DNA of 64,000 nucleotides from Apostichopus japonicus (lineage: Eukaryota; Echinodermata; Holothuroidea; Aspidochirotida; Stichopodidae), in the NCBI RefSeq assembly GCF_037975245.1, contig NC_092576.1, positions 26,301,611 through 26,365,610 of the forward strand. Direction: 5' to 3'. Of the stretch, positions 1 through 42,637 are shown in pieces. The notes beneath the pieces are model-generated. The model was not told where the DNA came from, did no database searches, and saw only the letters and a program-made list of their open reading frames with translations. The translations under genes and the position numbers were made by a program. Each line of letters starts with the position of its first letter. The first letter of the stretch is position 1.

Positions 1-2112
1 AACAATAGGTCTATATGTTTGGTACTGTTCCCACAGCCAAAATTTGCATATATCCTCACCATAATAGATGAAATCTGAAAAAGACAAAGGGAGAAGTATT
101 TAATATTTGATACTGTACGATCCATGAAACGTCTGATATTTTTGCTATAATTATGACTGCATTTTAAATTTTTAACAAATGTAAAATGGCACAGGTAATG
201 GAAAGTCCTGAAGGATTCTCCATAATATTCTCCATAATATAATATTCTATAGATCTCAAGTGACATAAATGGAACTATGGGAAGGCTATCAAAAAGTAAG
301 TCCATAGGAAGATTGAAAGACAGGTCCAATCTGTCAAAGAAACCTGAAAAGTTGTGCATGTGCAACTACTCCAGCCCCCCACCCCCTTCCTCTTTCACTC
401 CAAACAGACGACTACATATGCAAGTAAGAATGGGACTGATATTCTCTTGACCCTAATTATCTTCGTCACTGTGCACCTGCAACTGCTAGCCTAAGTGAAT
501 TAACCACAATAGGTCTAGCCAGTACTGTAGCCAACACCGTACAACAATGGGTTTTACTGAATCACTAAATTTACTGTTAGTGTTACATCGTTTCTCTTTT
601 CCATTCTTATTGTATTGTAACTTGCAGATATGTTCTACGTACGAATGAGTTTTAACAATAGTTTGGCCAAAATCGAAACAACGTTGTGTACGCGACGTCC
701 TAGCCTACGTCAATTTGGCGATACTCAGGCCTACCCACATTAGTCTCATTTCAAAGATTTTGTAAACAACTGTACTTCCAAATGACGTTTATGATTTCTC
801 TTCTACTCACCAGTTAGCCGTTATCGTTGTTGAACGGATAAAAACGCAAAGAACAAATTGTTGAAAGTTCGGTTTATTTTGGTTCGTAGTGTAACTTACT
901 CAGTGTTGATAATTGTCTATGACAGTGACACATACACAGTACAGCTGAGCAAATGCTGTGTTCTTATTTCACCTTTGGAGAAAGGTCACGCACATGCGCA
1001 AAAAGTAATTTCGAAAAGGCTTATTAATGGGATATAAATACTTCTCCTTAAAGGGTGTGAAGACTCCCGCACAAAGAAACGTCTCATGCCCGTTATCTGA
1101 CCTGGTTCCGAATGCGGTGTAACAGAAGTGTTAGACACCACCATTGATCCCAGAAAATACACACACAGCTTGCTACCATCTGTAAATAGCCATTAGTATA
1201 CAGTCAATACAAACATCACGGTCAATACTCACAACACAGTGCACATAGTATCAGGTTTCATTACTGTCTGCATTTTGTAGCGACACCAAAAAAATTCACT
1301 TGCAAGCAAGGGAAAGTAAACTTTTTCAGAGCGTGGCATGCGGTTTAGGGCGAGTCTTCAATACCTTTAAATATACTGCATCGGTTGTTGTCACTTGATC
1401 ATTTGCTTGTGTGTGAGCTAAACAGCTTATATAATATGTAAAAAAATAATACAAACTTTCAAATTGCCAGATATTTACTTGCTAAAAATTATTATCCAAT
1501 CATGATTTGATGCTATCCTTGAGTCCATTATGCAGATGATGAGGCAGATTCCCTTCAACTCTCCATGATGAAGGTAAAACCTTAAATCTTAACCAACTGC
1601 CATTGAGTGTCCATTTGAAAGTTTCAAACACACAAGTGCATTGATTAAAGCAAAGACTTTATTGCTGTGGTTGCATGAACTGGATTTCAGTCTAATAGTC
1701 ACTCACCAGGTTCGTCTTTATCACAGTCTGCTAACTGTGGCTTTTTATGTTAGGAGGTTTTCTTCAGAGCACATGTCACCTTTGATTTGTAAAAATATCC
1801 TGAAATTCAGGGAGTTATAATTTACTGTGTAAAGATAATTGGAAAAGATTTTTTTTTAACTTCAATCGTCAATGTGGGTGTCAACTAGGGGAATAAGGAG
1901 TTACTGATGCAATGAGTTTCTGGCATAAGTGCATTTATAATGTGTTAAAACTTGAAAGGTGTATCATACTGCATCCCCCCCCCCCCCCCTCTTAATTTGA
2001 ACTCCGTTGGAATGCACAGACAGTTTTGCTTTTTAATGAAATACCAGTTAACACTAAATTTTCAAATCAATTCAAGTCTTGCTTTAAAACAGTCAAACGA
2101 AACCGTGCATTG
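1..2112. other. Intergenic stretch, no gene recognised
   Basis: AT-rich sequence with no reading frame I can assign and no splice-consistent exon set. It holds one copy of a dispersed repeat (about 1052-1252) and a run of 15 C at 1975-1989. The last 12 bases (2101-2112, AACCGTGCATTG) are the left copy of the target-site duplication of the family B LINE that begins at 2113. Confidence 0.6.
1052..1252 (+). repeat. Dispersed repeat, copy 1 (unclassified)
   Basis: About 200 bp that matches 25768-25960 in the same orientation with scattered substitutions and small gaps. Shared landmarks in order are GTGTGAAGACTC, GAAGTGTTAGACA, CAGAAAATA followed by CACACAGCTTGCTACC, ACAGTCA.TACAAACA, and GGTCAATAC.CACAACACAGTG. 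No coding potential, no A-tail and no obvious terminal repeat are visible. It could be a piece of a SINE, a MITE or an element UTR; the sequence does not decide. Confidence 0.7.
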
Positions 2113-2329
2113 ACTGATAGCCGTCTCATAGCCGTCTGAGGGACTTGGCGTGGAGGATTGCACATGGGGTCCTCATCACTAACCATTTTCGCCTAGTCAG
2201 GTGGCGATTAGGTGATGGGATTTGTCCCCGTGTGGGCTGTAAAGCCATCGAGACTATGCAACACCTTTTGCTGGAGTGTCCCTTTGTCCGGTTGGTGTGG
2301 GATTGGTTTCACGCCTTCGTTATTGGTGT
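2113..2329 (+). pseudogene. Family B LINE, 5' part of truncated ORF2 C-terminus
   Basis: Plus-strand fragment coding for the C-terminal part of a non-LTR retrotransposon ORF2, beginning just before LRDLAWRIAHG. It shows WRLGDGICP, a GC..IET..H....CP zinc-finger-like pattern typical of L1/Tx1-type ORF2 tails, and ends at WFHAFVIGV. Family A ORF2 has the matching segment WRIAHGALVTN...WRLGDGLCP. The reading frame stops abruptly at 2329 because family A is inserted there, and it resumes at 7223. The element is 5'-truncated, as is usual for LINEs, and starts directly after the duplicated target AACCGTGCATTG (2101-2112). Confidence 0.85.
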
Positions 2330-2490
2330 GCTTTTGACGTGACCCGTCATACGGGATACAAAACGTCACGGCCAAACGGCACTACCAAACCATCCCATTC
2401 TTACAAACGAACCTCAGGTCAAGCGAGCCAAAAAAAGTACATACGCTCACCGACCTGCAGAGACAAAACGCCCAACCCCCCACTGAAATA
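2330..2490 (-). other. Family A 3' UTR with predicted terminal stem-loop
   Basis: The 160 bases between the ORF2 stop (2491-2493) and the element end. In sense orientation the last 50 bases include CGTGAC...CCCGTATGACGG...GTCACG, which can fold with an outer 6-bp arm and an inner CCCGT/ACGGG arm around a 3-base loop, ending 8 bases before the terminus. Many LINEs use a 3' hairpin as the reverse-transcriptase recognition site; that role here is inference. Bases 2337-2402 recur without a mismatch at 61675-61740. Confidence 0.6.
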
Positions 2491-5400
2491 TTAAAAAACT
2501 ACAAAAGGACGACCAGCACGCAGCGAAACAAAACACCCTTCCCCAGCACACCACCGTCCAAAAAAGGCAGACCTAGATAAACGGCGAAAATCGCCTTCGA
2601 CCTGAAGGCGAATGTCAGACTTCACCGCCTCCAGGACTGCCTGCCAACTGGCAAATTTCCCCCTAAAAACAACATCACATCTATTCCTCCAAATAAGTTT
2701 TTTTTACAACAGAACAAACATAAATAATACGCTGCAACACAGCAACGGAACAAACTGGAGGATCTAATCCATACAAAACAAAACCCTGTCCTACCGACCA
2801 GGAACGGTCTCCCGTTAAACGGTCGGTCCAGGACTGAAACCACTCCCACAAGTTCAAAACAAAGGGGCAATGCCAAAAAACATGGGCAGTACTCTCTAAG
2901 CTGTCACAGCCGGTCCTCGGGCACAGTCCATCACCCAATCGCCAGTGATACCTTTTCAGATTGGTCACCAAGGCACCGTGTGCAATTCTCCATGCAAGGT
3001 CACGGAGCCTGCAACCATTCAGCCTTGAATGCACCGAACGCCATACTTCGACAGGATGACGTCCCTGTACAAAAATTGCATTCAAGGCCCTATCCCGCAA
3101 CGAACTGTGAACGAGGGCCGGCTGTGACAGGTCAACAGGGGGCAACTCAATCAGAGCGGAGCAAATGACACGCACCACCCTGTTTGGAGTACTACTATGC
3201 GGTTCTCTGTTGCTAAACAGCGCCGGGACCCATCGACGCAGGTGCAAACCGCCCCAAAAACGTACAAAATATGAACAAGGCAACCCTGGGTCAGTTACCG
3301 CTACAAACAACTGCTTAAATAACAAACAAGTTAACTTACTTCCCAGATGAACCACCCCTAACCCACCCTTCTCCAGTTTTTGGTACATTACCGCCCTCTT
3401 GACAAGCTCTGTACCACCCGACCAAATAAATGAAAATATCGCTCTCTCCAACCGCACCAGGACGCGACGCGGAATTGGATACACCGCGCCCGGGTACCAC
3501 AAGATGGGCGAAACAAAACGATTAACTACGGTGACTTTCCCTAGGATCGAAAGCCAGCGGGTGCCAAAGGTTTCGAGCCTGCTCTCAAATACCTCAGCCC
3601 TCTCGCTCCAGGTGACATCACCAGGTGCATCGTAGCCGAACCATATACCATTAATTTTGATCCGACCACGACGCACCGAATGGTAAGTCTCTGTATCTCC
3701 AGCTACCAAGACGAAGGCCCTTTGTCTTTTCTGGATTCAACTTCGCCCCGGTAGCTCTCTCAAAAATAGATAAATCCTGCGAGAGTGCGCGAAAGGAGCC
3801 CAGACTCGAAACAACACATGTCACGTCATCTGCATATTGAGCGCATTTCACTTTGGCACCCCCTGGCACAACGAATGGAACAAGTCTGGAGTCCCTTTCC
3901 AAAAGACGAGAGAGGGACTCGCTAAACAAAACATAAAGTAATGGAGACAGAGGGCACCCCTGGCGCACCCCCCTCTCTACGTTAAAAACCTCCGAACAAA
4001 ACCCATTTACGATAACGGAACTGAAACTTTCTTCATACAAAACAGAAATCCAATTACGAAAATTTGGGTGCAACTGAAACGTCTCCAATACATTCATTAA
4101 AAAACCGCGATCCACCATGTCAAAGGCCTTCTGCTGGTCCAGAGACACCAATGCACATGGCAGATCACGCTCAATAACAAAGTCGGTCAAGTCGCGCATC
4201 AACCACAAGTTCTGCTGGATGCAATGACCCTTCACTGCACAAGTCTGGAGATCACCCACAAGATGCGGCATAGCCAGTGCAAGGCGGTTGCACAAAGCCT
4301 TAGCCAGCAACTTGTAGTCCACATTTAACAAGGTGATCGGACGCTTGTTACGGGGATCCAAGGGGTCCCCAGACTTGGGCAGCAAAGTAATCATGCCCAG
4401 ACGTTGACTTTGGTTTAACAGTCCGTTTTGGAAGGCGTCCTCGAAGACGGCTCTGATGTCGGGTCCTATTATTGCCCAGAAGGTTCGGTAGAACTCCCTC
4501 GGAAGCCCGTCCGAACCCGGGGACTTGCCATTCTTCATCTTCGAAAGCGCCTTCCAAAGCTCAACAGTGGTTATTTCGCCCCCCAAAATATCATTGACAT
4601 CGTGGGGAACGGTTTTTGAGATTCCCCTCAATAAATCAGCCTGTGCCGACAAGTCGACATTGCCACGCGTAAACAAACTCGAATAGTACTCTTTATATAC
4701 GCGGACAATGCCGTGAGGGTCACTAACCACGGTCCCATCAGTAGCGCGTACAGACGGGACGCGTCTGTCACCTGCCGATGAGCTAACGGACTGGTAAAAC
4801 CTCAGTGAAGGGCGCTCCTCGGCTTCCACCGCTTCGACACGGGCCCTGACGCGGGCACCGTGGTACTTTTCATCGAGATAAGTCTGCAAAGCGATGACTG
4901 CCGAAGGGTCGCCAAACTTCACCTCCGCGCACAGCTTCGAGAATTTTTCTCTTCGACGCCGTGCGCGGGTCACGCAATACTGAATTGCGTAGCGTTTGAT
5001 GCGCAGCTTGACCTCATCCCACCATTGGGATGTAGAAGCAAAGGCCGGCTTCAATGTTTGCCATCCTTTGTACCTGGTCTCGAAACCCTGGCGGAACTCT
5101 GCCTCGCCAAGAATCCGACAGTTAAGCTTCCATAGGCCCCGCCCGATGGGGAAAATGGAAGGCAAAACAAAACGTGCTACTACAGTGTCATAGTCAGAGA
5201 GCGGACAGCTGAGCGTCTCGCAACCCGAAAATGTAAAACTTACGGGCGCATACACTCGATCTATCCTGGAGGCATCTTCTCCGTTAGGCCTCACCCACGT
5301 ATACCCCGTACTACACGGGTGCATATGCCTCCAGACATCGGCTAAAAGGTGTGCCGAAGTGAATCTGTCCAATTCTGTGATCCCAGCGTCGGGACTTGCA

Positions 5401-5876
5401 GACACAGAAGTTCCGAGTCTGTCAAGACCCGAGTCTGGGACACAGTTAAAGTCTCCGACCATGACACACGGCGCACTACCAGGAACAAAGGAAGGCAGCG
5501 TGTTAAAAAAATCTCGTCTAGCAGAAGGCCGATTGGGAGCATACACATTGCAAATGGCGATGTTACCCTGTGGATACTTGAATAGAATGCAAACCAATCG
5601 GCCCTCGTGATCCGTCTCCACCCTAGTGGCACAACCCGCCTGACGAGCTGACAGAAGGATGACAGTGCCACAGGATGAAGACGAACCAAACGAAGCATGC
5701 AGCTCACCACCCCACTCATAAGCCCATAGAGGGACATCTTCTTCCAAAATATGTGTTTCTTGCAGGCAAACGCAGTCGACCTCCATTGATTTACAATATT
5801 GGAAAATGCGACTGCGCTTGCGATGATCCCTCATGCCATTCACGTTCAAAGTGGCAACTGAAAGTGTATGGGCCAT
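2491..5876 (-). pseudogene. Family A ORF2: APE endonuclease / reverse transcriptase
   Basis: Encodes the enzyme for target-primed reverse transcription. I start at the ATG at 5876; the upstream in-frame codons 5877-5894 contain no ATG. The APE-type endonuclease comes first: LNVNG (N11), LQETH (E40), NVYAPN (~110), GDFN (D142, N144), SRIDRVY (D206). The final SDH motif reads SDY (Tyr229), so the usual catalytic His is lost. The reverse transcriptase follows, with PITLLNVDYK, SLDQQKAFD, RQGCPLSP and QYADDV (YADD from residue 681, 3825-3836). The frame shifts near 3716-3721 (CCC run) and again at the 8-T run 2698-2705, then reads through the WRIAHG and CP..GC..H..C tail to a TAA at 2491-2493. 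ORF1 ends 20 nt upstream of the ORF2 ATG, so ORF2 may be translated by reinitiation. Two single-base shifts in homopolymers could also be assembly errors. Confidence 0.9.
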
Positions 5877-5896
5877 GAGAGGGCAGTGGGGCAAAA

Positions 5897-6988
5897 CTAC
5901 GAAGACGACGATTCCGTAAGCTTCAAGCGCGCCCTTGACGACATATCGTCGTCCGAGTCGTCACTTGAAGCCGACCTTTTAAGAGAGGGTTCCCCCATTT
6001 CGTCGTACCAGCTCGTCCCAGTGGCACGTTTCGGCTCACTGATCACCGATTCACCGGAGTCGCTGTCAGACAGAACCTCCGGAGAATCGATGACCACCGA
6101 TTCTCCGTCAGACAAAGCCTCCGGATCTGGCGATACCGGCGGCGGACTGGGGACGGAACTGGACGAGTTGATGGGGGAAGCTGGTGGAGACTTTCTCGGT
6201 GCGGGCACGGGGTTGGGGTCTGCAACGACGGGGGAGGGTGAACCAGGTGCAGGGGAGGGTAAAATCCCACCAGATTCCCCCTCCTCTCGTGAAGTAGTAG
6301 GTGCGTCGGAACTTGACTTACCCCCACTCTTAGTCCTAGAGACATAAGAGGAGGGACAAGCTCGAAAGACATGTCCCTCCTTCCCACATAGTGAGCACAC
6401 AACCTCGTTTGGGCAAGCGGTGCTATCATGCCCAAGACGAAGGCAGCGCCCACATTTCTTGTTTGGGCAGCCCTTGGCTTCGTGCCCGGTCTCCCCACAC
6501 CTGAAGCAGGTACGGGGCTGACCGGGATACCGCACGTGGGCTTTATGCCCTGCTATAAACAGGAAGGAGGGAATGTCCTGTTTCAGGTCGATCCGAACCT
6601 GTCGGTGCCCGTTCAACACCCCAGGGGCTTGTGCATAGGAGCACATTTTGGCAGCCTTGACAGCCCCGAACCGACCCAAAACCGTTACGACAAGTTCCTG
6701 CCGCACCTCTAGTCCTACGTGGATGATAGTTACCCATACGGATCGCTCGTATGGAGTAACTGTCATCCCCTCGACGTTACTCAGCAACGTGACACCTTTC
6801 TGACGGGCCACGTCACTGGTAAAACGTAAATCGTACGTATTACGACCCTGGAGAGCTTGCAAAGCATCAACCTCTCCAGGCACAACAACACCCTTGCTCT
6901 TCAAAATACTAAAAACTTGCACCGGTGGAACAACTTGTTCACCGGTGAACGACAACTTAACTATCCGAGAATCACGGCGCGATGCCAT
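5897..6988 (-). CDS. Family A ORF1: gag-like RNA-binding protein with three zinc knuckles
   Basis: An intact 363-residue frame starting MASRRDSRIV at 6988. An open frame runs upstream to 7279 but crosses the element border at 7207, so the ATG at 6988 is the sensible start; the same start context (MAARRDSKIV, MAVRRDSKIV) occurs in family C. Residues ~60-150 look like an RRM-like fold (WVTIIHVGL...VVTVLGRFG). Three CCHC knuckles follow: C161-C164-H169-C174, C179-C182-H187-C192 and C198-C201-H206-C211. The C-terminal 150 residues are rich in Pro, Ser, Asp and Glu and likely disordered. ORF1 proteins of this kind coat element RNA and form the cytoplasmic ribonucleoprotein. This is the best-preserved coding region in the window. 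Confidence 0.9.
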   Translation of the reverse strand: MASRRDSRIVKLSFTGEQVVPPVQVFSILKSKGVVVPGEVDALQALQGRNTYDLRFTSDVARQKGVTLLSNVEGMTVTPYERSVWVTIIHVGLEVRQELVVTVLGRFGAVKAAKMCSYAQAPGVLNGHRQVRIDLKQDIPSFLFIAGHKAHVRYPGQPRTCFRCGETGHEAKGCPNKKCGRCLRLGHDSTACPNEVVCSLCGKEGHVFRACPSSYVSRTKSGGKSSSDAPTTSREEGESGGILPSPAPGSPSPVVADPNPVPAPRKSPPASPINSSSSVPSPPPVSPDPEALSDGESVVIDSPEVLSDSDSGESVISEPKRATGTSWYDEMGEPSLKRSASSDDSDDDMSSRARLKLTESSSS

Positions 6989-7207
6989 GATACCGAAGGT
7001 GGCTAGGCCACAGGGTAGTAACACAAAAACAAAAGACAGGATAGTGAAACAACAAACGATATACGAACTGAGGAAAACACACGAACACAAGCTATCACAC
7101 CCGTCTGGCGGGAAGTATAGCACAGCACAGTACAATAACAGCTGTAACAGATGAAGAGCGAGAGCGAAAACACGTCCGCACTCCACGAAAGCCAACTCCA
7201 ACTCCAA
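6989..7207 (-). promoter_or_regulatory. Family A 5' leader with DPE-like word
   Basis: The 219-bp 5' UTR begins TTGGAGTTGGAGTTGG and contains GGAGTGCGGACGTG about 25-37 bases in. GGACGTG matches the downstream promoter element described for Jockey/I-type LINEs (A/G-G-A/T-C-G-T-G, about +30). The same GTGCGGACGT word occurs near the 5' ends of the fragment at 13.4-13.7 kb, of family C at 11.9 kb and of family C at 35.5 kb. An internal RNA polymerase II promoter is therefore likely; the transcription start was not observed. Confidence 0.5.
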
Positions 7208-7222
7208 CTTCGTTATTGGTGT
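7208..7222. repeat. Right target-site duplication of family A
   Basis: CTTCGTTATTGGTGT, identical to 2315-2329. Joining 2329 to 7223 restores the family B ORF2 frame (FVIGV followed by NGCTSDFVLYGL), which confirms that the 4.88 kb between them is an insertion. Confidence 0.95.
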
Positions 7223-7533
7223 TAATGGTTGCACGTAGTGATTTTGTTTTGTATGGTTTGTTGTCCCCTGTGTGCCCAACCTGGGTTAGGGATCTGCTGT
7301 TGTTGTTTGCCGCTGTCATCAGGAGACACATCTGAAACAGCAGATGCCGCCTAGTTTTCGATGGGGACGTCTGGAGGGCAGAGGATGTTGTCCCCCTCGT
7401 GCAAAGTGACATCAGGTTGCGCATGGAGGCGGACCATGTACGGCTTCCCGACACTGCCTTTCGTAGACGCTGGCGCAAGCCTGTCGTCTACTATCGGGAC
7501 GGCGTTCCCCGGACGAAATTTGGAGTGAGTTAG
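7223..7533 (+). pseudogene. Family B LINE, 3' end of ORF2
   Basis: Continues the frame broken at 2329: SDFVLYGLLSPVCPTW, LLLLFAAVIRRHI, a stop, then a segment with DIRLRMEADHVRLPDTAF and a final TAG at 7531-7533. It aligns with the end of family A ORF2 (GFVLYGLDPPVC, DIRLQVEGDFRRLSRSAF). The in-frame TGA at 7333-7335 sits where family A has Trp. The last 20 or so codons (RKPVVYYRDGVPRTK) are the stretch also present at the ORF1/3' UTR junction of family C. Confidence 0.85.
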
Positions 7534-7800
7534 TTGGTAGGTGTGGGGGCTGTGTGGTCGTTACATAGTGTGGGTTGGTTTAATTTTTCTCTTTCTGGTT
7601 TGGGGTTGGCTTTTTGGGGCCTGTTTGTGGTGTTTTGCTTGTTTTGCTTCTGTTGGCCTTTGGGTCCGTGCCCTTTTCGCGTCGCGTTGGGCGCTGCGTT
7701 AGTGAGAGATTGATGGGTTTGAGTTGTTGTTTTACAGACTGGGTTTGTTTTTGGTTTTGTTGACCTTTGGTCCGTGTCCGTTTCTTAACACGTAAAAAGC
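7534..7800 (+). mobile_element. Family B LINE 3' UTR and 3' end
   Basis: A 267-bp 3' UTR ending CACGTAAAAAGC, followed at once by AACCGTGCATTG (7801-7812), the right copy of the 12-bp target-site duplication that starts at 2101. It contains two similar blocks (TTGGCCTTTGGGTCCGTGCCC and the terminal TTGACCTTTGGTCCGTGTCC) and a 5-base G run at 7545-7549. The same UTR, with longer G runs, ends the family C copies at 10.24, 33.73 and 42.58 kb. With its nested insert removed, the family B copy spans 2113-2329 plus 7223-7800. Confidence 0.85.
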
Positions 7801-7812
7801 AACCGTGCATTG

Positions 7813-9539: not shown

Positions 9540-10238
9540 TATCTGAAAGAAAAGGAAACCTTGGAAGGACAAGCAAAGTTGACGCCAGTAGTCCTTTTTT
9601 TGGGAATGACATATATGATACAGATGACACTCTGAATTTTACATTTCTCATGTTGTGTCAGATGACCAAACGAAATTGAATCTGGGAACGCATATGATTG
9701 AAGGATTTAGTCTTTCTACTAAAAAGAAAATGAGTCCGATTAAAAAACAAAGACTTAAACAGAAAGAAACTGTACATGGTATGGAAAACCAATAGAAGAA
9801 ACGTTAAAGATGCTGTGTATAATGATAGCAAACCATCTTATGAGTTTGAAACAGGAATTGAAACTGAAGGAAACAGAAATAACAACAGCAGAAATGGAAG
9901 CACCCAAGCAGCAGGTTATCAATTATCCCCGGAAGAAAGGTTTTGTTTATGCAGGAGGAGTTAATGATCCCAAGTTACCTTACGTACAGTGAGACACTTG
10001 TTATGAGTGGTATCATTATCAGTGTGTGGGCTTCAAAGAACGTATAAATTCATTGAAATTGCCGTTTGTTTGTCCAGTAAGTAGGCGAAAAGCTCATAAA
10101 AGAGATAAGATAAACCACGTTAAATCAACGCAGTCAACGAAAAGGTATCGGCAAAACAAAAGCCTTGGGAACACGGATAGAACTGAAGGTATTGAAAGTG
10201 GTGGTGATGACGATGGTGACAGCAAAGAGATTTATTGT
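9540..10238 (+). pseudogene. Decayed PHD-finger-coding segment of an unassigned element
   Basis: Reading across one frameshift (about 9945) and one stop (about 9990) gives a PHD-like zinc finger: FCLC, then GGVNDPKLPYVQ, a stop where the third-pair Cys is expected, DTCYEWYHYQCVGF, and FVCPVS where a Cys is expected. A basic stretch (RRKAHKRDK) and an acidic tail (GGDDDGDSKE) follow. The tail is cut at 10238 by a family C insertion and an acidic tract resumes at about 11900. PHD fingers usually bind histone H3 tails and are found in some transposable-element proteins. I do not recognise the family. Confidence 0.5.
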
Positions 10239-11899
10239 GCTTTTTACGTGCAAAGAAAACGGACACGGAGCAAAGGTCAACAAAACACATAACAACCCGT
10301 CTGATTAACAACCACCAAAAACCCAACTGAAAACCCACAAACAGAAATCTCTCACCAACCCACAAATGTATACAACGCAGCGACGCGAAAAGGACACGGG
10401 ACCCGAAGGCCAACAGAACCAAAACAAGAAAGCTCTACAAACCAGCCCAGACAAGCCAACTCCAAACCAAAAACAGAACCCCCCAACCCATATTATGTAA
10501 CGACCACACAACCCCCCCCCCCCATAACTAACAACTAACCCACTCCAAACTTCATCCGGGGTACGCATTACCTCCGACGTTTTCCCAATATGGGTCTTTG
10601 CAGGCCCCTAGCAGTGTTCCCCCTTTCTTACGAGCGATCGAGTGGACCTCCCTGTCAGGAACAGGAGGTCCACTAGCGACCATCGTGTCCGGTATAGCGG
10701 AAACGACTGCGGGCAGGTTGGAAGGGCAACTCGAGTCAATGAGATCAGTTGCCCGTTTCGTCTCATCAAACCAATCGGAGGACTCCTTAGCCACAACTAC
10801 CAAGGCTGTAGTGCAGTCCTCCATTCACGAGTCAGAATCTGGGCCACCTAATGTGTCTTGGGCCAGTTGACTCGGGGCCCGACTGATATCACCGATGGCG
10901 GGCGTAGCTACCGGTGAACAAGCGGCTTCCTGCTCCGCATGCCACTCCGCTAGTACCATCTCCACCGTTTTATCCAGCTCCGCCTCGGTGGGCAGTCTCG
11001 GCAGACGAGGTGGGACACGAAAGGGGGGACAAATCCTCCACCGGGGCGATAGTGTCGGACACTGGGGCGATGACAGGAACATCAGGTGGTACGGTGTCAT
11101 AGGCCGGGACGGGGACCGCTACAACCACGCCCGTAGCCACTCTCGCGGCGTATGAGCGGTCTGGGCATAAACGGGCGAGATGGCCCTTTTTCCCACAAAC
11201 GATATCCCCTTTACACTCGGCCAGGGTATGCCCAATCTGTAAACAGCGGCTACAAGTGCGAGGCTGGCCAGGGTATGCACAAGGTAGAGGGAATATCGGA
11301 CTTGAGTTCGACTGTGACTCGTCTAGTCCCGGTCTTGACACCCTTACATTCAAGGAATTGCGGCTCCTCGTAGCCGGTCACTTTCCCAAAACGCCCCAGT
11401 GTCCGCACAACAACCTGTTCAGACACGTCCAGAGGGAGGTGGAGGACTGTCACCCACACCGAACTGTCATACGGTGTGACATTCAGTCGCTCAACTCACT
11501 CAAACACATGGACGCCTCGGACGCGGGCAGCCTCCAAGGTGAACCGTACATCAAAACAATTCATACCCCGGAGAGGTTTACGCTGAAGCGCGTCAACCTC
11601 TCCAGGGACCTTTAAACCAACAAAACGCAAAACTGAAAAAAAATTGTCCGGGGACGACCTTAGCCTCCCCCGAAAAACTCAACAATACGATTTTGCTGTC
11701 ACGGCGAACCGCCATGACAGCTAGGGGTGTGGCAAGCCACGCACCTACGAAAATCAAAAACCACGAAAGAAAGCCAAACCTACACTAAACAAACTACAAA
11801 CTATTGAAAGGCCAACGTAAAAAACACAAAGTGTGTGGTCAACGAAAAGTGGAGAGCAGCCGAAAAACACGTCCGCACTCCACGAAAACCACGACTAGC
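10239..11899 (-). mobile_element. Family C, copy 1: gag-only LINE derivative
   Basis: A 1.66-kb minus-strand element. The 3' end at 10239 reads (sense) TTTGCACGTAAAAAGC. The 5' end near 11899 carries the shared leader word GGAGTGCGGACGTG. Between them lie an ORF1 remnant, a few bases of former ORF2 and a B-type 3' UTR with a 12-base C run on the plus strand (10512-10523). No endonuclease or reverse-transcriptase sequence is present. Compared with the copy at 33.7 kb it lacks about 30 bases around the junction (GCG joined directly to GTACCCCGG at about 10560-10567). I could not find a target-site duplication. Confidence 0.75.
10552..11715 (-). pseudogene. Family C copy 1 ORF1 (gag-like) remnant
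   Basis: Starts MAVRRDSKIVLLSF at 11715, continues in several frames through an RRM-like part (MWVTVLHLPLDVSEQVVV, TLGRFGKVTGYEE) and zinc knuckles (CSRCLQIGHTLAEC, then a damaged knuckle in which IVCGKKGHLARLC has lost residues between the first two Cys). It ends in an acidic/Pro-rich tail beginning MEDCTTALVVVAKESSDWF. At least four frameshifts break it. The order of parts matches family A ORF1, with a longer C-terminal tail. Confidence 0.75.
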
Positions 11900-31255: not shown

Positions 31256-32300
31256 AGGGGGCTAGAAGTCACAGGGATAGGTTGTCACAAAGGCTCTCAG
31301 CCAAACCCCATAATGCGTACAGTCGCATGAATGGGTGTATAGTATTAGTATGCACCCAGGCACTCTCGATCCACATTTCACCAGTTCCTCGCTAGCGCCG
31401 ATATCCACTCGTACAAAGATCCTTATTTTGTAACCCAAAAAGCTACTTCTTGGGGCGTTTAATTTTTACTACATGTCAGCAATATTTGTCACGGGGTTGG
31501 TCGACGAAAGTGTTTCTATTACAAAACCTAATAACGTTGTCTGCGAAGGTTTCGCAGAACCAGTCTCCCCATTGGGAAAAAGGACGATGAAACAAGATGT
31601 CACAATTTGTGACAACTTGCCCCAACGTAATTTTGTACATAGGGGATCTATTGTGCGAAATTGTGACAACTTGCCCCAGAAATATCTTATGAACCCAAAA
31701 GTTGCTGTAATGTTATTGGTTTGAATCACTGTTTCAGTGTTTATGAATTGACTTGAATGTATTTTGATCTAGCCTAGCCTTATAAAGGCATGGGATTCAT
31801 TGGATCCATAAACTCTCACCCCAGTAGCTGCCCCATAACAAAACTCCTGGAACCCGAATACAGGGGGGAACCGGGAGGGGGATATGAGCTGGGAGGGGGT
31901 AGGGGGACACGCGTCCCCCCACTTTCCCTTAATACAGCAATTATGCCCCACTGAAATGGAAAATATGGATGTCAGTTAGTTGAAATGCTTTCTTGGCAGT
32001 CTCCCGATTCCCAAAAAGACGCCCAATTTTTTCCCCCGCTCCGCATGCACCACTTTTACTTTCCTGTCGAGGCTTAGGGCGGCTTGGAAAACTGGGGATA
32101 AAAGTTGTCTGCCCCCTATCAGACGAGTCCCGTACGCCTTGGCATGTAGGCGATCCGTATTGTTAGTAAGACGAGTAGAAATTGTGTATTGGGGGAGTGC
32201 CCCTCTGATGTGCCCCCCCCACTTTTTGGAAGCCTCTTATCCCGAGCCCGAATACTCTGTGTGGAAGTTCTATATAAAAAAAATCTTCTATGTCGTGAAG
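31256..32300. other. Spacer upstream of the Tigger-like gene
   Basis: No gene recognised. At 31860-31925 it has AGGGGGGAACCGGGAGGGGGA and GGGGGACACGCGTCCCCCC, a 16-base near-perfect palindrome around ACGCGT. A direct repeat TTGTGACAACTTGCCCCA occurs at about 31608 and 31661. GTGCCCCCCCCACTTTTTGG follows at about 32209. The stretch may be the 5' part of the Tigger-like element. Confidence 0.4.
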
Positions 32301-33689
32301 ATGGTACAGAAGTATCAGCGAAGAACGGGGAGGGGAACCTTCAACAAAGAGGCAATGACCGCAGCTGTCAAAGCTCATGAGGGAGGCATGAGTTCGAGGA
32401 AAGCCGCTGAGCTGAATGGGGTCAACTACCGCACTCTGGCAAAAAAACATCCCGATATATAAGAAGAATCAGGCTAGTCTCGACGGCAACCACGAAGGTC
32501 CTGACCGACGCCATAGAACAGGATATGGTTGAGTATGTGAAAAAGGCTGCAGCAATATTCTATGGTATAACCTTTGATTCAACTTGCCTATTTTTTCGCA
32601 GTGGCGAACAACATATGCTCTCCCATCTAACTGGATTAAAGAAAAGAAGGCAGGTCTTGACTGGGCAAAATATTTTCTGAAACGCAATACCAGTATTTCC
32701 CTGAGAAAGCCAGAGGCCACCTCAGTGCAACGCATGATTAACTTCAATCCCCACAACGTAGAGAAGGTATTGGAGAGAGAGGTTGGATTTTAGGCAGATC
32801 AGATCTGGAATGTTGATGAAACCGGGGTAACTACAGTTCAAAAACCAGTGAAGATCCTCCCTCAGAAAGGTGCCAGACAAGTGGCATCCACGGTGTCGCA
32901 TGAGAGGGGGACACTTGTGACATTGTGTTGTGCGGTCAACGCCCTTGGTAACCACATACCACCATTCTTTGTGTTCCCGAGGAAGAAGACCCAGGATTTT
33001 TGGCTCCTCACGGCACCACCTGGAAGCGATGCCTCTGGATCCGGCTCAGGTACAGGGTGGATGACTGATGAAATGTTTCTGAAGTATCTCCGACATTTCA
33101 CGAAGTACGCGAAACCAACACCCGAGAGACCAGTCCTTCTCCTTGACAACCACCATTCCCATGTCTCTCTCAAAGCCATAACATTTGCAAAGGAGAACCA
33201 TATCGTTATGCCCAGTTTCCCACCCCATTGTTCCCATGAGCTGCAGCCACTCGACAAGTCGGTGTATGGCCCGTTTAAAGGCTACATCAACCAAGCAAGC
33301 GACAACTGGATGCCCCAGCCGGAGAATGCTAGGAAGGCAATGTCCGTTTACACCATCCCGCAACTAGTGTCGTATGCTTTCCCAAAAGAACAAAATGTCA
33401 GGGTTCAGAGCCACCGGCATATGTCCCTTCGACAGGAACATCTCCCCCCAACCCCCGCACAAGTTTATCTCATGCTATTCGTCCGACCCGTCCATTGAGA
33501 GAGTCCACTTCAGATGATAGAGCTACTCCGTCAGAATCCTCGGGTGGAGGAGGCTGCACTGAGGTCTCGGCTCCGCCAGTCATCAACATGAACACGCACA
33601 TCATGCCAGAGGAATCGGATCGAGTGGACCCAGCCGATGTTCCGGGTCCATCGCTCGTCAAAGGGAGCACTGATACCTCACCAGGATAA
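32301..33689 (+). pseudogene. Tigger/pogo-type (DDE_1) transposase, decayed
   Basis: The ATG at 32301 starts MVQKYQRRTGRGTF, a Psq-type helix-turn-helix (SSRKAAELNGVNYRTLAKK) that binds element ends. After a frameshift near 32460 come VLTDAIEQDMVEYVKKAAAI, a shift near 32605, and NWIKEKKAGLDWAKYFLKR. The DDE core follows: IWNVDETGVTTVQKP, GTLVTLCCAVNALGNHIPPF, SGSGTGWMTDEMFLKYL, PVLLLDNHHSHVS and SFPPHCSHELQPLD. These are standard DDE_1 landmarks, with the first two catalytic Asp in NVDET and LLDNH. A TAG at 32793 interrupts the core. After about 33400 the frame shifts into a Ser/Asp-rich tail that ends at 33687. Family C inserts about 45 bp later. No terminal repeats were found. Confidence 0.8.
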
Positions 33690-33733
33690 GCGGATGAAGT
33701 TGGCTACGAAGAGGACCGTGCCGCAGTGTTTGT

Positions 33734-35555
33734 GCTTTTTACGTGCAAAGAAAACGGACACAAACCAAAGGTCAACAAAACCAAAAACAATCCCAGTCTG
33801 TAAACAACCACCCAAACCCAACCGAAAACCCACAAACAGAAACCTTTCACCAACCCACAAACGTATGCAATGCAGCGTTCAACGCAACGTGAAAAGGACA
33901 CGGACCAAAAGGCCAACAGAACCAAAACAACAAAGCTCTACAAACCAGCCCCAAAAAGCCAACTCAAAACCACAAACATAACCCCCCAACCCATATTATG
34001 TAACGACCACACAACCCCCCCCCACACCTAACAACTAACTCACTTCAATTTTCATCCGGGGTACGCCGTCCCGATAGCAGACGACAGGCTTGCGCATTAC
34101 CTGCGAAGTTTTCCCAATACGGGTCTTTTCAGGCCCCTGGCAGTGTTCCCCCTTTTCCTACGAGCTGGCAGAGTTCTTAGCTCCTCGTGAACCTTGATCG
34201 AGTGGACCTCCCTCTCAGGAACAGGAGGTCCACTAGCGACCATCGTGTCTGGTATAGCGGAAGCGGCTGCGGGTAGGGTGGAAGGGCCACTCGAGTCAAT
34301 GAGATCAGTGGCCTGTTTTGTCTCATCAAACCAATCGGAGGACTCCTTAGCCACAACTAATAAGGCTGTAGTGCAGTCCTCCATTGGCGAGTCAGAATCT
34401 GGGCCACTTAATGTCTCTTGGGCCGGTTGACTCGGGCCCGACTAGTATCACCGATAGCGGGCGTAGCTACCGGTGAACCAGTACAAGCGGCATCCTGCGC
34501 CGCGTGCCACTCCGCTAGTACCATCTCCGCCGTTTTGTCCTGCTCTGCCTCAGTGGGCAGGCTGGCAGTCTCGGCAAGTTCGATCAGGGGAGAGGTCGGA
34601 CACGAAAGGGGGAACAAAGCCTCCATCGGGGCGCTAGTGTCGGACACTGGGGCGATGACAGGAGCATCATGTGATACGGTGTCAGAGACCGGGACAGGGA
34701 CCGCTTCAACCACGCCCGTAGCCACTCTCGCGGCGTATGGGCGGTCTGGGCATAAACGGGCGAGATGGCCCGTTTTCCCACACGAGTTGCAAACGATATC
34801 CCTTTTACACTCGGCCAGGGTATGCCCAACCTGTAAACAGCGGCTACACCGCTTGTTCGGGCACAACCTGGCCTCATACCCTTCTAGCTCGCACCTCCAA
34901 CAAGTGCGAGGCTGGCCCGGGTATGCAATGTAGGCCCCGGGCCCATTAGGCTACAAGGTAGAGGGAATATCGGACTTGAGTTCGACTCTAACTCGTCTAG
35001 TCCTGGTCTTAACACCCTTACATTCAAGGAATCCCGGCTCCTCGTAGCCGGTCACTTTCCCAAAACGCCCCAGTGTCCGAACAACAACCTGTTCAGACAT
35101 GTCCAGAGGGAGGTGGAAGCCTGTCAGCCACACCGAACTGTCATACGGTGTGACCTTCAGTCCCTCAACTCCCTCCAACACATGGACGCCTCGGACGCGG
35201 GCAGCCTCCGAGGTGAATCTAACATCAAAACAATTCATACCCTAGAGAGGTTTACGCTGAAGCGCGTCAACCTCTCCAGGGACCTTTAAACCAACAGAAC
35301 GCAAAACTGAAAAAACCGGGGACGACCTTAGCCTCCCCCGAAAAACTCAACAAAACGATTTTGCTGTCACGACGAGCCGCCATGACAGCTAGGGGTGTGG
35401 CAAGCCACGCACCTACTAAAACCAAAAACCACGAAACAAAGCCAAAACTACACTTAACAAACTGTTGAAAGGCCAACGTAAAAAACACAACGTGTGTGGT
35501 GAACGACAAGTGGAAAGCAGCCGAGGAGACGTCCGCACTCCAGGAAAACCAGCTA
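33734..35555 (-). mobile_element. Family C, copy 2: full-length gag-only LINE derivative
   Basis: A 1.82-kb minus-strand element with both ends defined. The 3' end (sense) reads TTTGCACGTAAAAAGC at 33734-33749 and the 5' end GGTTTTCCTGGAGTGCGGACG lies at about 35530-35555. It is flanked by CCGCAGTGTTT at 33721-33731 and 35556-35566 (11-bp target-site duplication, with two further unmatched bases at the 3' side). It encodes ORF1 only. Sense bases after the ORF1 stop (TAATGCGCAAGCCTGTCGTC...GACGGCGTACCCCGGATG) match the last ORF2 codons of family B, then the B-type 3' UTR follows. It therefore resembles HAL1-type half-LINEs, which must borrow reverse transcriptase from a full element. Confidence 0.85.
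34097..35383 (-). pseudogene. Family C copy 2 ORF1 (gag-like)
   Basis: Starts MAARRDSKIVLLSFSGEAKV at 35383. Past a frameshift it gives MNCFDVRFTSEAARVRGVHV, VRTLGRFGKVTGYEEPGFLE (RRM-like part), YPGQPRTCWRCELEGYEARLC (a knuckle with Tyr for His), CSRCLQVGHTLAEC and CNSCGKTGHLARLC. A long Pro/Ala/Ser/acidic tail ends KRPVLGKLRR at the stop near 34097. Frameshifts lie near 35310, 34950 and 34430, and a stop interrupts near 35240. The tail is longer than that of family A ORF1 and is shared by all three family C copies. Confidence 0.8.
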
Positions 35556-35568
35556 CCGCAGTGTTTTG

Positions 35569-39649: not shown

Positions 39650-41356
39650 ATAGCTAAACATTCCAGCAAAGCGATTCTGACGTATTTTGCTCCAGCAAAA
39701 AAGAAAACTGCAGTACCTGATGTAACTGATAATGCAAGCATTGATTCTTTATCGACATCAGCAAGTTCAGCGACCATGGAAAACCCAAATGAGCTGTTAT
39801 CTTCAGCCCTAGATACCTCACCAGAAAATGATACTCTGGTTAGCAAAGATAGCATTGAGGGGATACAGCCAATAGACCCTTTCTGTTCATGATCCCAGAA
39901 GTGCATCGCGCTTTCTTGAAGAAGGCTCCTTCCAACCAAATTATACGTTCCCAACAAGTACTGAGAGGAAGTTCAGGAGAAAGTGGTTCTCTGTGTTAAC
40001 ATGGATAGAGTACAGTCCTGCCCTAGATAAAGCCTTCTGTTTCCCCTGCCGAGCATTTCCTGGAAAAGGTTGCATGGAAGATGCTTTCAGGAAACACGGT
40101 TTCAATAACTTGAAGAAGAGCACAAACAAATTCAGTGACCACCAAAATAGTATTTCACATCTTGCTACGATGGAGCAACTGATCGCGTTGAGAAGTTGCC
40201 AACAAATGGGTAGTGTAGCTAGCCAACTGAACTCAGCTCATGAGAGGGAGGTTATGGGAAAGAGAGAATATTTGTGGTCAAGACATTGCTTTTTTGTGCC
40301 CGGACAGGTATACCACTTCGGGGTCATGATAAATCTCAAGATTCATCCAACAAGGGTAAGAAATTCAGTCTCATGGAACTGGGAGCTGATGATAATTCTG
40401 TCATCGACAAATATTCCAAAAAAAAAGGAAAGATCTTTCAGCTACGTCCAAGGAAAACACCAAAATGAACTTTTATCAATAATGACAGACAATGTGCTGC
40501 AGAAGATAACTAAAGATATTCAGAAGGCCGGATTTTTTTGCCGCAATAGCAGATGAAACGCAAGACATCAGTCGACATGAACAAGTTGCCGTCGTTCTGA
40601 GACACTGTGATGATAAGTTCAACATGAGTCATTCATCGGTTTCTACAGAACAAACAAAACAGATGGGGATTCCTTGGTTCCTTACTCAAAGAAGAAGTAT
40701 TGTCCCTAGGTTTGGACATGAAGAACATTAGAGCCCAGTGCTATGATGGAGCAGCAAACATGTATGTGGCCATGTATGTGCATTGTCATGCACATATTCT
40801 TAACCTGTGCATCGTAGACATGTGCACGTAAGTACCTGCTGTTGCTTATCTGATGACAACAATGTCTGCACTCCACACCTTTATGGAAGGGTCTGCCAAA
40901 CGTCATGCCATTTTGGAGAACTTTATGAAGGGTAAGACAGCAGGTTTGTTGGCTTATCCACCACCTTGAAATCTTTGAGTGACACATGATGGAGTTGTCC
41001 AGCCGATGCACTGAAGAGTGTCTTCGATAATTGTGACCCTCTTCTGACTGCATTGGAGGAGATATCAGAAACAAGGAGGGCAGGCAAGCATGATAGAGTC
41101 GATTAGAAACTCTTCACAGGCATACTCCTGCGCCGGATTCTGACAGTGCAATATGCTCGCGAAAGAATTTCAATCAAAACACTAAACTATGCAACTGTCA
41201 AGTCATTAGCCAGAGCTACTGTGGAAGTCCTCACCACTATGAGGTCAGATGATTATTTTGAGAAACTATGGGTATACACCCTAGGTCTAAGTAAAGATCT
41301 AGACATTCCGGGTCCCATGCCTCGTAGAAGAACTGCGCCCCCAAAGCTTGGTGGTG
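39650..41356 (+). pseudogene. hAT-type (ZMYM1-like) transposase, N-terminal and central part
   Basis: Reading across frameshifts gives KAILTYFAPAKKKTA, ASRFLEEGSFQPNYTFPTST, WFSVLTWIEYSPALDKAFCF and PCRAFPGKGCMEDAF (a TTF-type zinc finger). Further on are GIPLRGHDKSQDSSNKG, FIAAIADETQDISRHEQVAV and QCYDGAANM. SLARATVEVLTTMRSDDYFE and PRRRTAPPKLGG close this part. These are landmarks of the hAT transposases related to ZMYM1 and '52 kDa repressor' proteins (ADET, YDGA.NM). At 41357 the frame meets a family C insertion; the C-terminus is at 42576-42637 and 43622-43857. Frameshifts are numerous, for example near 39892, 40300, 40545 and 40715. Confidence 0.75.
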
Positions 41357-42575
41357 GGTAATGCGCAAGCCTGTTGTCTGCCGTCAGGGCGGCGTGCCCC
41401 GGACGGGGTTTGTGGTCGTTACATAATATGGGTCGGGGGGGGGGGTCTGTTTGTAGTTTGGGGTTGGCTTTTTGGGGCTGGTTTGGCATACCCTGGCCGA
41501 GTGTAAGGGGATATCGTGTGTAACTCGTGTGGGAAAACGGGCCATCTCGCCCGGTTATGCCCAGACCGCTCATACGCCGCGAGAGTGGCTACGGGCGTGG
41601 CTGAAGCGGTCCCCGTTCCGGCCTCTGACACCGTACCACCTGATGCTCCTGACATCGACCCAGTGTCCGACACTAGCGCCCCGGTGGAGGCTTTGTTCCC
41701 CTTTCGTGTCCGACCTCTTCCCTAATCGAAGTTGCAGAGACTGCCAGCCTGCCCACTGAGGCAGAGCAGGACAAAATGGCGGAGATGGTACTAGCGGAGT
41801 GGCATGTTGAGCAGGATGCCGCTTGTACTGGTTCACCGTTAGCTACGCCCGCTATCGGTGATATTAGTCGGGCCCCGAGTGAAATGGCCCAAGAGACATT
41901 AAGTGGCTGAGATTCTGACTTGCCAATGGAGGACTGCACTACAGTCTTAGTATTTGTGGCTAAGGAGTCCTCCGATTGCTTTGATGAGACGAAACAGGCC
42001 ACTGATCTCATTGACTCGAGTGGCCCTTCCACTCTGCACACAGTCGCTTCCGCTATACCGGACACGATAGTCGCTAGTGAACCTCCTGTTCCTGACAGGG
42101 AGGTCCACTCGATCAAGGTTGACCAGGAGCTTAGAACTATGCTCGCTCGTAAGAAAAGGGGCAACACTGCTAGGGGCCTGAAAAGACCCATATTGGGAAA
42201 ACTTCGCAGGTAATGCGCAAGCCTGTTGTCTACCATCGGGACGGCGTACCCCGGATGAAAATTTGAGTGAGTTAGGTGTGGGGGGGGGGGGGGTTGTGTG
42301 GTCGTTACATTATATGGGTTTGGGGGGTTGTCTGTGGTTTGGAGTTGGCTTTTTGGGGCTGGTTTGTAGAGCTTTATTGTTTTGGTTTTGTTGGCCTTTG
42401 GGTCCGTGTCCTTTTCACGTCACGCTAAACGCTACATTATATACATTTGTGGGTTAGTGATAGTTTTCTGTTTGTGGGTTTTCAGTTGGGTTTTTGATGG
42501 TTGTTAAACAGACAGGGATTGTTTTTAGTTTTGTTGACCTTTGGTCCGTGTCCGTTTTCTTTGCACGTAAAAAGC
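41357..42575 (+). mobile_element. Family C, copy 3: rearranged, plus strand
   Basis: Two pieces in the same orientation. Piece X (41357-41484) starts GGTAATGCGCAAGCCTG, the ORF1/3' UTR junction, and runs about 128 bp into the 3' UTR. Piece Y (41485-42575) jumps back to ORF1 at GGCATACCCTGGCCGAGTG (coding HTLAEC) and continues through a knuckle (CNSCGKTGHLARLC), the acidic tail and its KLRR stop near 42213. It then passes the same junction and the full 3' UTR to CACGTAAAAAGC. A 14-base G run lies at 42280-42293. The insertion lies in the hAT gene, but no clean target-site duplication is visible. Confidence 0.75.
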
Positions 42576-42637
42576 ACGGAAAGCTGTTCCCAAAAGCGCT
42601 TAGATTTCTTCCAGACACAAAACCTTAGTCAGAGTAT
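42576..42637 (+). pseudogene. hAT transposase, short middle segment
   Basis: Sixty-two bases between the family C 3' end and the solo LTR. In the hAT frame they give KALRFLPDTKP, a stop and SEY. This frame joins directly to EQCCISSSPLYDIPMNSATC after the LTR is removed, which shows that both insertions hit the same gene. Confidence 0.65.

Follow-up and report, generated by a model that had tools for sequence, protein, structure and literature searches.

The window analysed here is a stretch of 64,000 nucleotides (nt) of contig NC_092576.1 (positions 26,301,611 to 26,365,610), and its minus strand carries an element with the organization of a long interspersed nuclear element (LINE) in which the first open reading frame (ORF1) is followed by only the very end of the second (ORF2). 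In this work, the ORF1-only lineage of this element is called C, the related full-length family B (with the subfamilies B1 and B2), and a second ORF1-only lineage D; individual copies carry L or W numbers. The element itself is C copy 2, and its parts, together with the flanking duplications, are as follows:

33732..35555, minus strand: C copy 2, ORF1-only element from 5' to 3' end, with both ends and a target duplication
33721..33731, minus strand: target-site duplication, 3' copy, AAACACTGCGG, 11 bp
35556..35566, minus strand: target-site duplication, 5' copy, AAACACTGCGG, 11 bp
34097..35383, minus strand: ORF1 region from ATG to TAA with CCHC zinc knuckles, broken, longest open stretch 180 amino acids (aa)
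34094..34095, minus strand: deletion junction TAATG-CGCAAG, where about 3.28 kb of L044 or about 3.37 kb of L050 (both family B) is gone
34044..34095, minus strand: kept end of family B ORF2, about 52 nt, by comparison with L050
33732..34043, minus strand: family B-type 3' untranslated region (UTR) with the terminus TTTGCACGTAAAAAGCAC and without poly(A)

Read from 5' to 3', C copy 2 comprises a 5' UTR, ORF1, the stop TAA (34099-34097), the letters TG, then CGCAAGCCTGTC and so on through about 50 nt of ORF2 end, and the 3' UTR, with the junction at 34095/34094. The letters after the junction are the final 52 nt of family B ORF2 including its stop, followed by the B 3' tail, as checked on L050, in which the junction point is position 5055. 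An earlier sequence-only reading had described the copy as complete with an 11-bp target duplication and as running from the ORF1 stop into the B ORF2 end and 3' UTR, and both statements are borne out. It had also described the copy as coding for ORF1; the ORF1-only layout stands, but the frame itself is broken and intact ORF1s occur only in other genomic copies. The ORF1 of C copy 2 gave a Pfam zf-CCHC match, and three knuckles were counted by eye.

The host genome searched has 35 contigs with a total of 671.6 Mb. A 31-nt junction pattern, allowed up to 3 mismatches, matched at 177 places and its reversed control, run on both strands, at none, so the junction is not due to chance. Among the 100 places listed, 21 were exact and 79 had one mismatch. 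For the undeleted passage from ORF2 into the tail, a 29-nt pattern with the same mismatch limit was found at 130 places (control 0), some of which are B2 pieces within another repeat, and the ORF1/ORF2 boundary pattern at 44 (control 0), four of them belonging to lineage D. In a similarity search with a 191-nt query, the best 40 of 431 candidates matched almost the full length of the query, the junction included. Among the 100 listed junction places, 55 are on contig C17, which is about 5.5% of the genome, and 26 on contig C16 (hand count). The C copies cluster at 15-25 Mb of C17 and 26-34 Mb of C16, and the listed B copies are concentrated in these regions too.

For the comparison of flanks, 36 C copies, each within 2.55 kb of sequence, were hand-picked over the contigs from the 100 listed places and 20 copies of one young variant, each within 1.9 kb, were added, which gives 59 with the three window copies. 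L016 and L017 were the single matching pair among the 54 copies with a readable 3' end (first 24 nt of the 3' flank). In the long 3' flanks of 36 of the first 39 copies (the 3' end of L003 being set by hand) these two alone matched along the whole flank; 64 nt common to L002 and L026 lie at different offsets and may, as we read them, be a dispersed repeat. No matching pair was found among the 23 5' flanks compared. When 60 nt at the 5' end were compared with 30 nt beyond the 3' end, at least 8 nt were common to both flanks in 9 of 20 full-length copies, versus 3 of 380 mismatched pairs. Shared flanks, by which segmental duplication would have betrayed itself, are thus confined to one pair of the C copies compared, and C multiplied by retrotransposition. 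From the 177 junction places, the one shared-flank pair and the excess of flank matches, it follows that the deletion derivative itself was mobilized, as the sequence-only reading had proposed.

The full-length parent which that reading had postulated also exists. The B elements L041, L044, L050, L051, and L052 share the 5' UTR, ORF1, and tail with C and have an ORF2 as well. L050 has an ORF1 open for 426 aa from its ATG and an ORF2 open over 1153 aa, and a 12-nt match, GGTCCTCTCCAG, was seen by eye in its flanks; ORF2 is broken in the other four, and ORF1 is open in 3 of 8 B copies with both ORF1 ends. C is derived from such a full-length LINE through loss of ORF2, positions 1687-5054 (about 3.37 kb) being gone relative to L050 and about 3.28 kb relative to L044. 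The ORF2 pieces of L041 match Pfam Exo_endo_phos and RVT_1, with zf-RVT just below the cut-off. The nearest solved structure to the L041 reverse transcriptase is human LINE-1 ORF2 protein (7.4e-39; next R2, 3.5e-21), which places it closest to the L1-type enzymes, in the L1/Tx1 group of LINEs, by a test that is coarse because few other LINEs have structures. From the appearance of ORF1 and ORF2, the clade is presumably Tx1.

In the tail tree of 50 sequences, 35 C tails formed one group without B or D (support 42), and in a 49-sequence run with partly shortened tails the support of the C group was 69. The 49-tail run used the first of two end motifs, dropped nine sequences with head or 3' end missing, and excluded L053-L061; the 50-tail run used the last end motif, included L085, and excluded the 20 later C copies, and in it a few tails (L029, L032, and L044) were still short. 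Together with the 100 listed places that carry the same junction within one mismatch, this grouping, weak as its support is, points away from separate deletions with different break points. The C tails and the B2 tails L040, L046, and L085 were split from B1 and D with support 99-100; because the root is a midpoint, the split does not make B1 the nearest neighbour of D. L085 is a B copy with ORF1 (part missing), a broken ORF2, and the tail, and L058, from the same place, has the ORF1 end TAATG as in C, where the B1 copies have TTATG or, in the case of L041, TTTTG. C probably arose from a B subfamily with the ORF1 stop TAATG, as in L058/L085.

A second deletion is represented by L047, L048, L049, L063, and L064, in which ORF1 sequence and about 60-70 nt of ORF2 start are followed by CCTGTCGTC from near the end of ORF2. 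A 28-nt D pattern with up to 3 mismatches gave 4 places (control 0), L048 being missed owing to insertions and deletions. L047 and L064 share flanks, and D is therefore present at four separate places; target duplications were seen by eye for L047 (exact) and L048 (with a mismatch). L063 has the B1-type ORF1 end TTATGACACC and the other four D copies the TAATGG form, so D is mixed too. A derivation of C from D was rejected, as C retains CGCAAG letters gone from D, and so was that of D from C, as D retains ORF2-start letters gone from C. Since neither can be derived from the other and both are at separate places, deletion derivatives were mobilized at least twice. Judged by its junction, D is a second, rarer ORF1-only lineage, which is new here. 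The tail of L063 contains extra sequence at about 1855-2050; it may resemble antisense U2 small nuclear RNA, and Rfam gave no match at the gathering score.

Some C lineages share their 5' part with B1, as both identity profiles along the alignment and a switch at informative sites indicate. In the 5' UTR, the young C copy L028 is 91-98% identical to the B1 copy L050, and L012, L018, L003, L008, W1, and W2 are 79-90% identical to L028. L019 matches L050 at 100% over about 300 columns and at 87-88% further on. The informative sites of L028 pass from B-like (0.75, 0.72) to C-like (0.05, 0.00) in two quartets, with a permutation p=0.0005 in both (the floor of 2000 shuffles); for L019 p=0.008, and at the informative sites of L012 and W2 no switch was detected (p=0.57, 0.79). 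The tails of L028 and L050 are 93% identical in the first 60 aligned columns (ORF2 end), 80-92% from there to the last ~70 columns, and 93-100% in these. A young C subfamily with a 5' end matching that of its putative helper is new here; the mosaic itself is evident, and its direction and mechanism we infer.

The ORF1 of C is open for 426-431 aa in 10 of the 35 copies with both ORF1 ends, so complete ORF1s belong to the lineage although the window copy is broken. Nonsynonymous (N) and synonymous (S) changes were counted by parsimony on sequences with at least 750 aligned nt; the ORF1 tree and an earlier count used 43 of 66 sequences, and at a later stage 57 of 86 qualified, of which the 42 C were counted. 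For these 42 C, the internal branches carried N 77, S 55, and stop 2 (omega-like ratio 0.58, p=0.0014) and the terminal branches 375, 181, and 14 (0.85, p=0.044); without CpG sites, N/S was 72/44 (0.61, p=0.0075) and 327/146 (0.84, p=0.041), respectively. The 36 younger C gave 36/35 with stop 1 (0.42, p=0.00029) on internal and 234/122/9 (0.79, p=0.022) on terminal branches, and without CpG 31/27 (0.43, p=0.0014) and 209/100 (0.79, p=0.029). For 29 young C, the counts were 15/16 with stop 1 (0.37, p=0.0057) and 142/79/6 (0.72, p=0.012), and without CpG 12/12 (0.36, p=0.013) and 131/65 (0.73, p=0.027). Internal stops expected without selection were 4.4, 2.2, and 1.0 for the 42, 36, and 29 copies. 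The earlier count had given internal and terminal ratios of 0.60 and 0.87 for 28 C, 0.47 and 0.79 for 22 C, and 0.63 and 0.87 for all 43 sequences. These ratios are moderate evidence that ORF1 mattered while C spread. The median pairwise identity is 98.4% among the 29 young C ORF1s (maximum 99.7%, 406 pairs) and 98.0% among nine B1 ORF1s (36 pairs); because the divergences are similar, the spread of young C may have been roughly contemporaneous with that of B1, in a relative and not an absolute sense.

We hypothesize, and regard as very probable, that C is a non-autonomous half-LINE which was itself mobilized, with ORF1 protein (ORF1p) acting in cis and family B ORF2 protein (ORF2p) in trans. 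One family B element would have lost ORF2 from 2 nt past the ORF1 stop to about 50 nt before the ORF2 end, and the resulting C RNA would keep the 5' UTR, a complete ORF1, and the B 3' tail. The ORF1p from C RNA would coat its own RNA in cis, and B ORF2p would recognize the common 3' tail and copy the C RNA by target-primed reverse transcription; the shared tails and one open B copy suggest this supply in trans. New C copies land at separate sites with target duplications, and template switching between C and B RNAs would give young C its B-type 5' end. Lineage D has a different deletion and likewise sits at four separate places.

Several observations weigh against this hypothesis. In the midpoint-rooted ORF1 tree of 43 sequences, C is not kept together but split into more than one group, with L002, L003, L008, L009, and L018 near D and L058, and W1 and the other C on the B1 side. 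We read this scatter as exchange, and the alternative is recurrent formation of the same junction. The monophyly of C in the tail tree is weakly supported in both runs, 11 of the 20 full-length copies have only 4-7 nt common to both flanks, and one 3' tail folded for a stem-loop gave no signal (z 0.50). As to selection, the internal C branches still have 1-2 stop changes (expected 0.8-4.4), the terminal branches are also below neutral, and the one-sided Fisher comparison of internal with terminal branches is weak (p 0.013-0.090 over six runs). Moreover, 12 B ORF1s gave 0.92 on internal and 0.71 on terminal branches, so that internal depletion is absent where selection is expected.

The last point also bears on a different explanation, in which the ORF1 of C is a passenger and C moved like a long short interspersed nuclear element (SINE) by means of its tail, with both B ORF2p and B ORF1p acting in trans. 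Mobilization by way of a common 3' tail is known from SINE/LINE pairs (PMC4176376), 25 of the 35 C copies with both ORF1 ends, the window copy included, are not open over 400 aa, and the N/S signal is moderate. However, nonsynonymous changes are depleted on the internal C branches, ten copies are open, and the ORF1 region up to and including its stop is retained in C as well as in D; a passenger ORF1 is therefore rather unlikely. Far less credible is that the junction came from splicing of full-length B RNA followed by repeated retrotransposition, although one junction is common to the 100 listed C places of 177 and GTAATG follows CGCAG at the ORF1 end. The missing segment is not GT...AG in either register allowed by the 1-nt overlap (read by eye), GTAATG is kept in the product, and the C tails group beside B2 and not B1, while repeated splicing should also give B1-type C; on this reading of the letters at the junction, a splicing origin was rejected. 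Spread by segmental duplication or as a satellite-like array, to which the shared flanks of L016/L017, the clusters on C17 and C16, and the C-to-B spacings at 14.3-14.7 Mb of contig C11 could point, is the least believable of these explanations and was rejected for the examined copies, except L016/L017 and the D pair L047/L064, as only one shared 3'-flank pair occurs among the 54 copies (a sample without C11-array copies of that spacing) and the full-length copies have flank matches of their own. On C11, C and B pattern matches are repeatedly 7646, 6958, and 7644 bases apart (by hand), an arrangement suggestive of local segmental duplication.

If C is a half-LINE mobilized by family B, as we prefer, a helper-parasite race within one LINE family could be imagined, with repeated formation of ORF1-only LINEs, a selected ORF1, and 5' renewal by template switching. 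This extension is tentative. In it, C from B2 and D by a separate deletion would be cases of the repeated formation, the half-LINEs would outnumber the helper tails (177 versus 130 places, counted with two different patterns), and B1 and C would differ most in the ORF1 C-terminus and the tail.

The window contains further copies of these families:

10237..11895, minus strand: C copy 1, with 29 nt more missing at the junction; 5' border approximate
41486..42578, plus strand: C copy 3, 5'-truncated, same junction
41356..41485, plus strand: piece X, a C tail fragment fused 5' of copy 3, ORF1 side of the junction only 7 nt
7285..7806, plus strand: family B copy, 5'-truncated, ORF2 end continuous into the same tail, left border approximate

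The junction that had been reported near 42.2 kb was found at 42215/42216. In piece X it can be placed at 41363/41364 as claimed, but the ORF1 side is only GGTAATG (7 nt) and the evidence is correspondingly short. The shortened form at 10.56 kb was recovered as well, a further 29 nt being gone between two GCG triplets (hand count), and it looks like a later deletion inside a C copy. The B copy ending near 7806 has the undeleted parental arrangement, with ORF2 running straight into the tail. At 41356-42578, piece X is joined directly onto the ORF1 of C copy 3, the structure that would result if reverse transcription had jumped from one C RNA template to another. At 2681-7285 (minus strand) lies a related LINE (family A) with endonuclease and reverse transcriptase in a single 769-aa frame; its ORF1 is 55% identical to C ORF1 over 225 aa and its ORF2 57% identical to B over 737 aa. 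Beside C copy 2, at 31980-33690 (plus strand), is a degraded transposase with Pfam DDE_1 in 32794-33498, which is presumably pogo/Tigger-like.

Some B tails elsewhere in the genome lie in other contexts. L040 and L046 were rejected as complete parent copies, being broken ORF2 pieces inside another repeat. L040 3167-6273 (contig C10) and L046 3196-6301 (contig C18) are 99.4% identical over 3.1 kb, and the stretch includes repeated sequence, a tail-bearing fragment of a broken B2 ORF2, and DNA past the LINE 3' end. A B2 fragment seems to have been captured here by another, young mobile repeat. With a 601-nt query, the best 40 of 386 candidates included further 94-100% matches on contigs C2, C5, C9, C10, C11, C17, C18, and C21. 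L042 (3384-5274) and L043 (3412-5282) have about 1.9 kb of non-LINE DNA ahead of a B tail that is cut off at almost one and the same position in both, with 2.5 kb in common including this DNA, and represent either a segmental duplicate or a chimeric retroelement.

The host had been called an invertebrate, and the mitochondrial COX1 agrees with this, as AAA stands at conserved Asn sites (for example in FSTNHKDIG and GGFGNW), as in the echinoderm-type code 9. Flatworms share this code, and the COX1 looks like that of an echinoderm. Because AAA is read as Asn, the host is no mammal, and together with the CCHC knuckle in ORF1 this separates C from HAL1 proper, which derives from mammalian L1. HAL1 is the best-known ORF1-only LINE with its coding capacity kept, and an independent case, in which ORF1 is of another type and the conserved tail lacks poly(A), suggests that this strategy is a general one. 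C is a natural test of whether ORF1p works in cis on its own RNA while ORF2p can be shared. C and D also bear on which 3' RNA ORF2p needs, since both deletions kept the tail and the last ~45-52 nt of ORF2. HeT-A, which forms head-to-tail arrays at chromosome ends, belongs to a different LINE group than C, and R2 has a single ORF and so no ORF1-only product.

In stringent LINEs, the LINE proteins are known to recognize a shared 3' tail (PMC4176376). HAL1 of mammals encodes only ORF1p and had several origins (PMC5753468), so it is a sound precedent, as the sequence-only reading held; guinea pig HAL1 is estimated to have remained ORF1-coding over 29-44 Myr, which was read as ORF1p in cis and ORF2p in trans (PMC3627910). 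Like HAL1, C is an ORF1-only LINE derivative that itself multiplied (PMC5753468), but its parent, from an echinoderm-type genome, is a zinc-knuckle ORF1 LINE whose conserved tail is not poly(A), where that of HAL1 is mammalian L1. C also retains about 50 nt of ORF2 and shows mosaicism with its putative helper at the 5' end, features that HAL1 may share. The remark of the sequence-only reading that it knew of no description from such a genome goes too far for invertebrates generally, given HeT-A and internally deleted copies of mosquito CR1; for an echinoderm, no such title was among the matches listed in openly licensed PMC papers, Repbase being outside this scope. Drosophila HeT-A is without pol, and TAHRE has a similar Gag and a Pol, so that here too a gag-only non-long-terminal-repeat (non-LTR) element has a gag-pol relative (PMC5537684). 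However, HeT-A goes to chromosome ends and never to the interior (PMC5537684), whereas C is at interior contig positions with flank matches and target duplications. Copies of Anopheles gambiae CR1-2_AG share internal deletion blocks and eight have a full-length ORF1 (PMC3442997), which resembles C in the shared deletions and the kept ORF1; CR1-2_AG belongs to the CR1 family, and the cited passages make no claim of a mobilized ORF1-only lineage, ORF1 selection, or helper exchange. The non-autonomous R2 and R2/R1 hybrid elements are also internal-deletion derivatives of a non-LTR element, but they are specific to the 28S site (PMC3414825). Thus, the kind of element is already known from HAL1, with looser parallels in HeT-A and mosquito CR1, and what is new in C and D is the LINE type, the host group, the double origin, and the 5' mosaicism.
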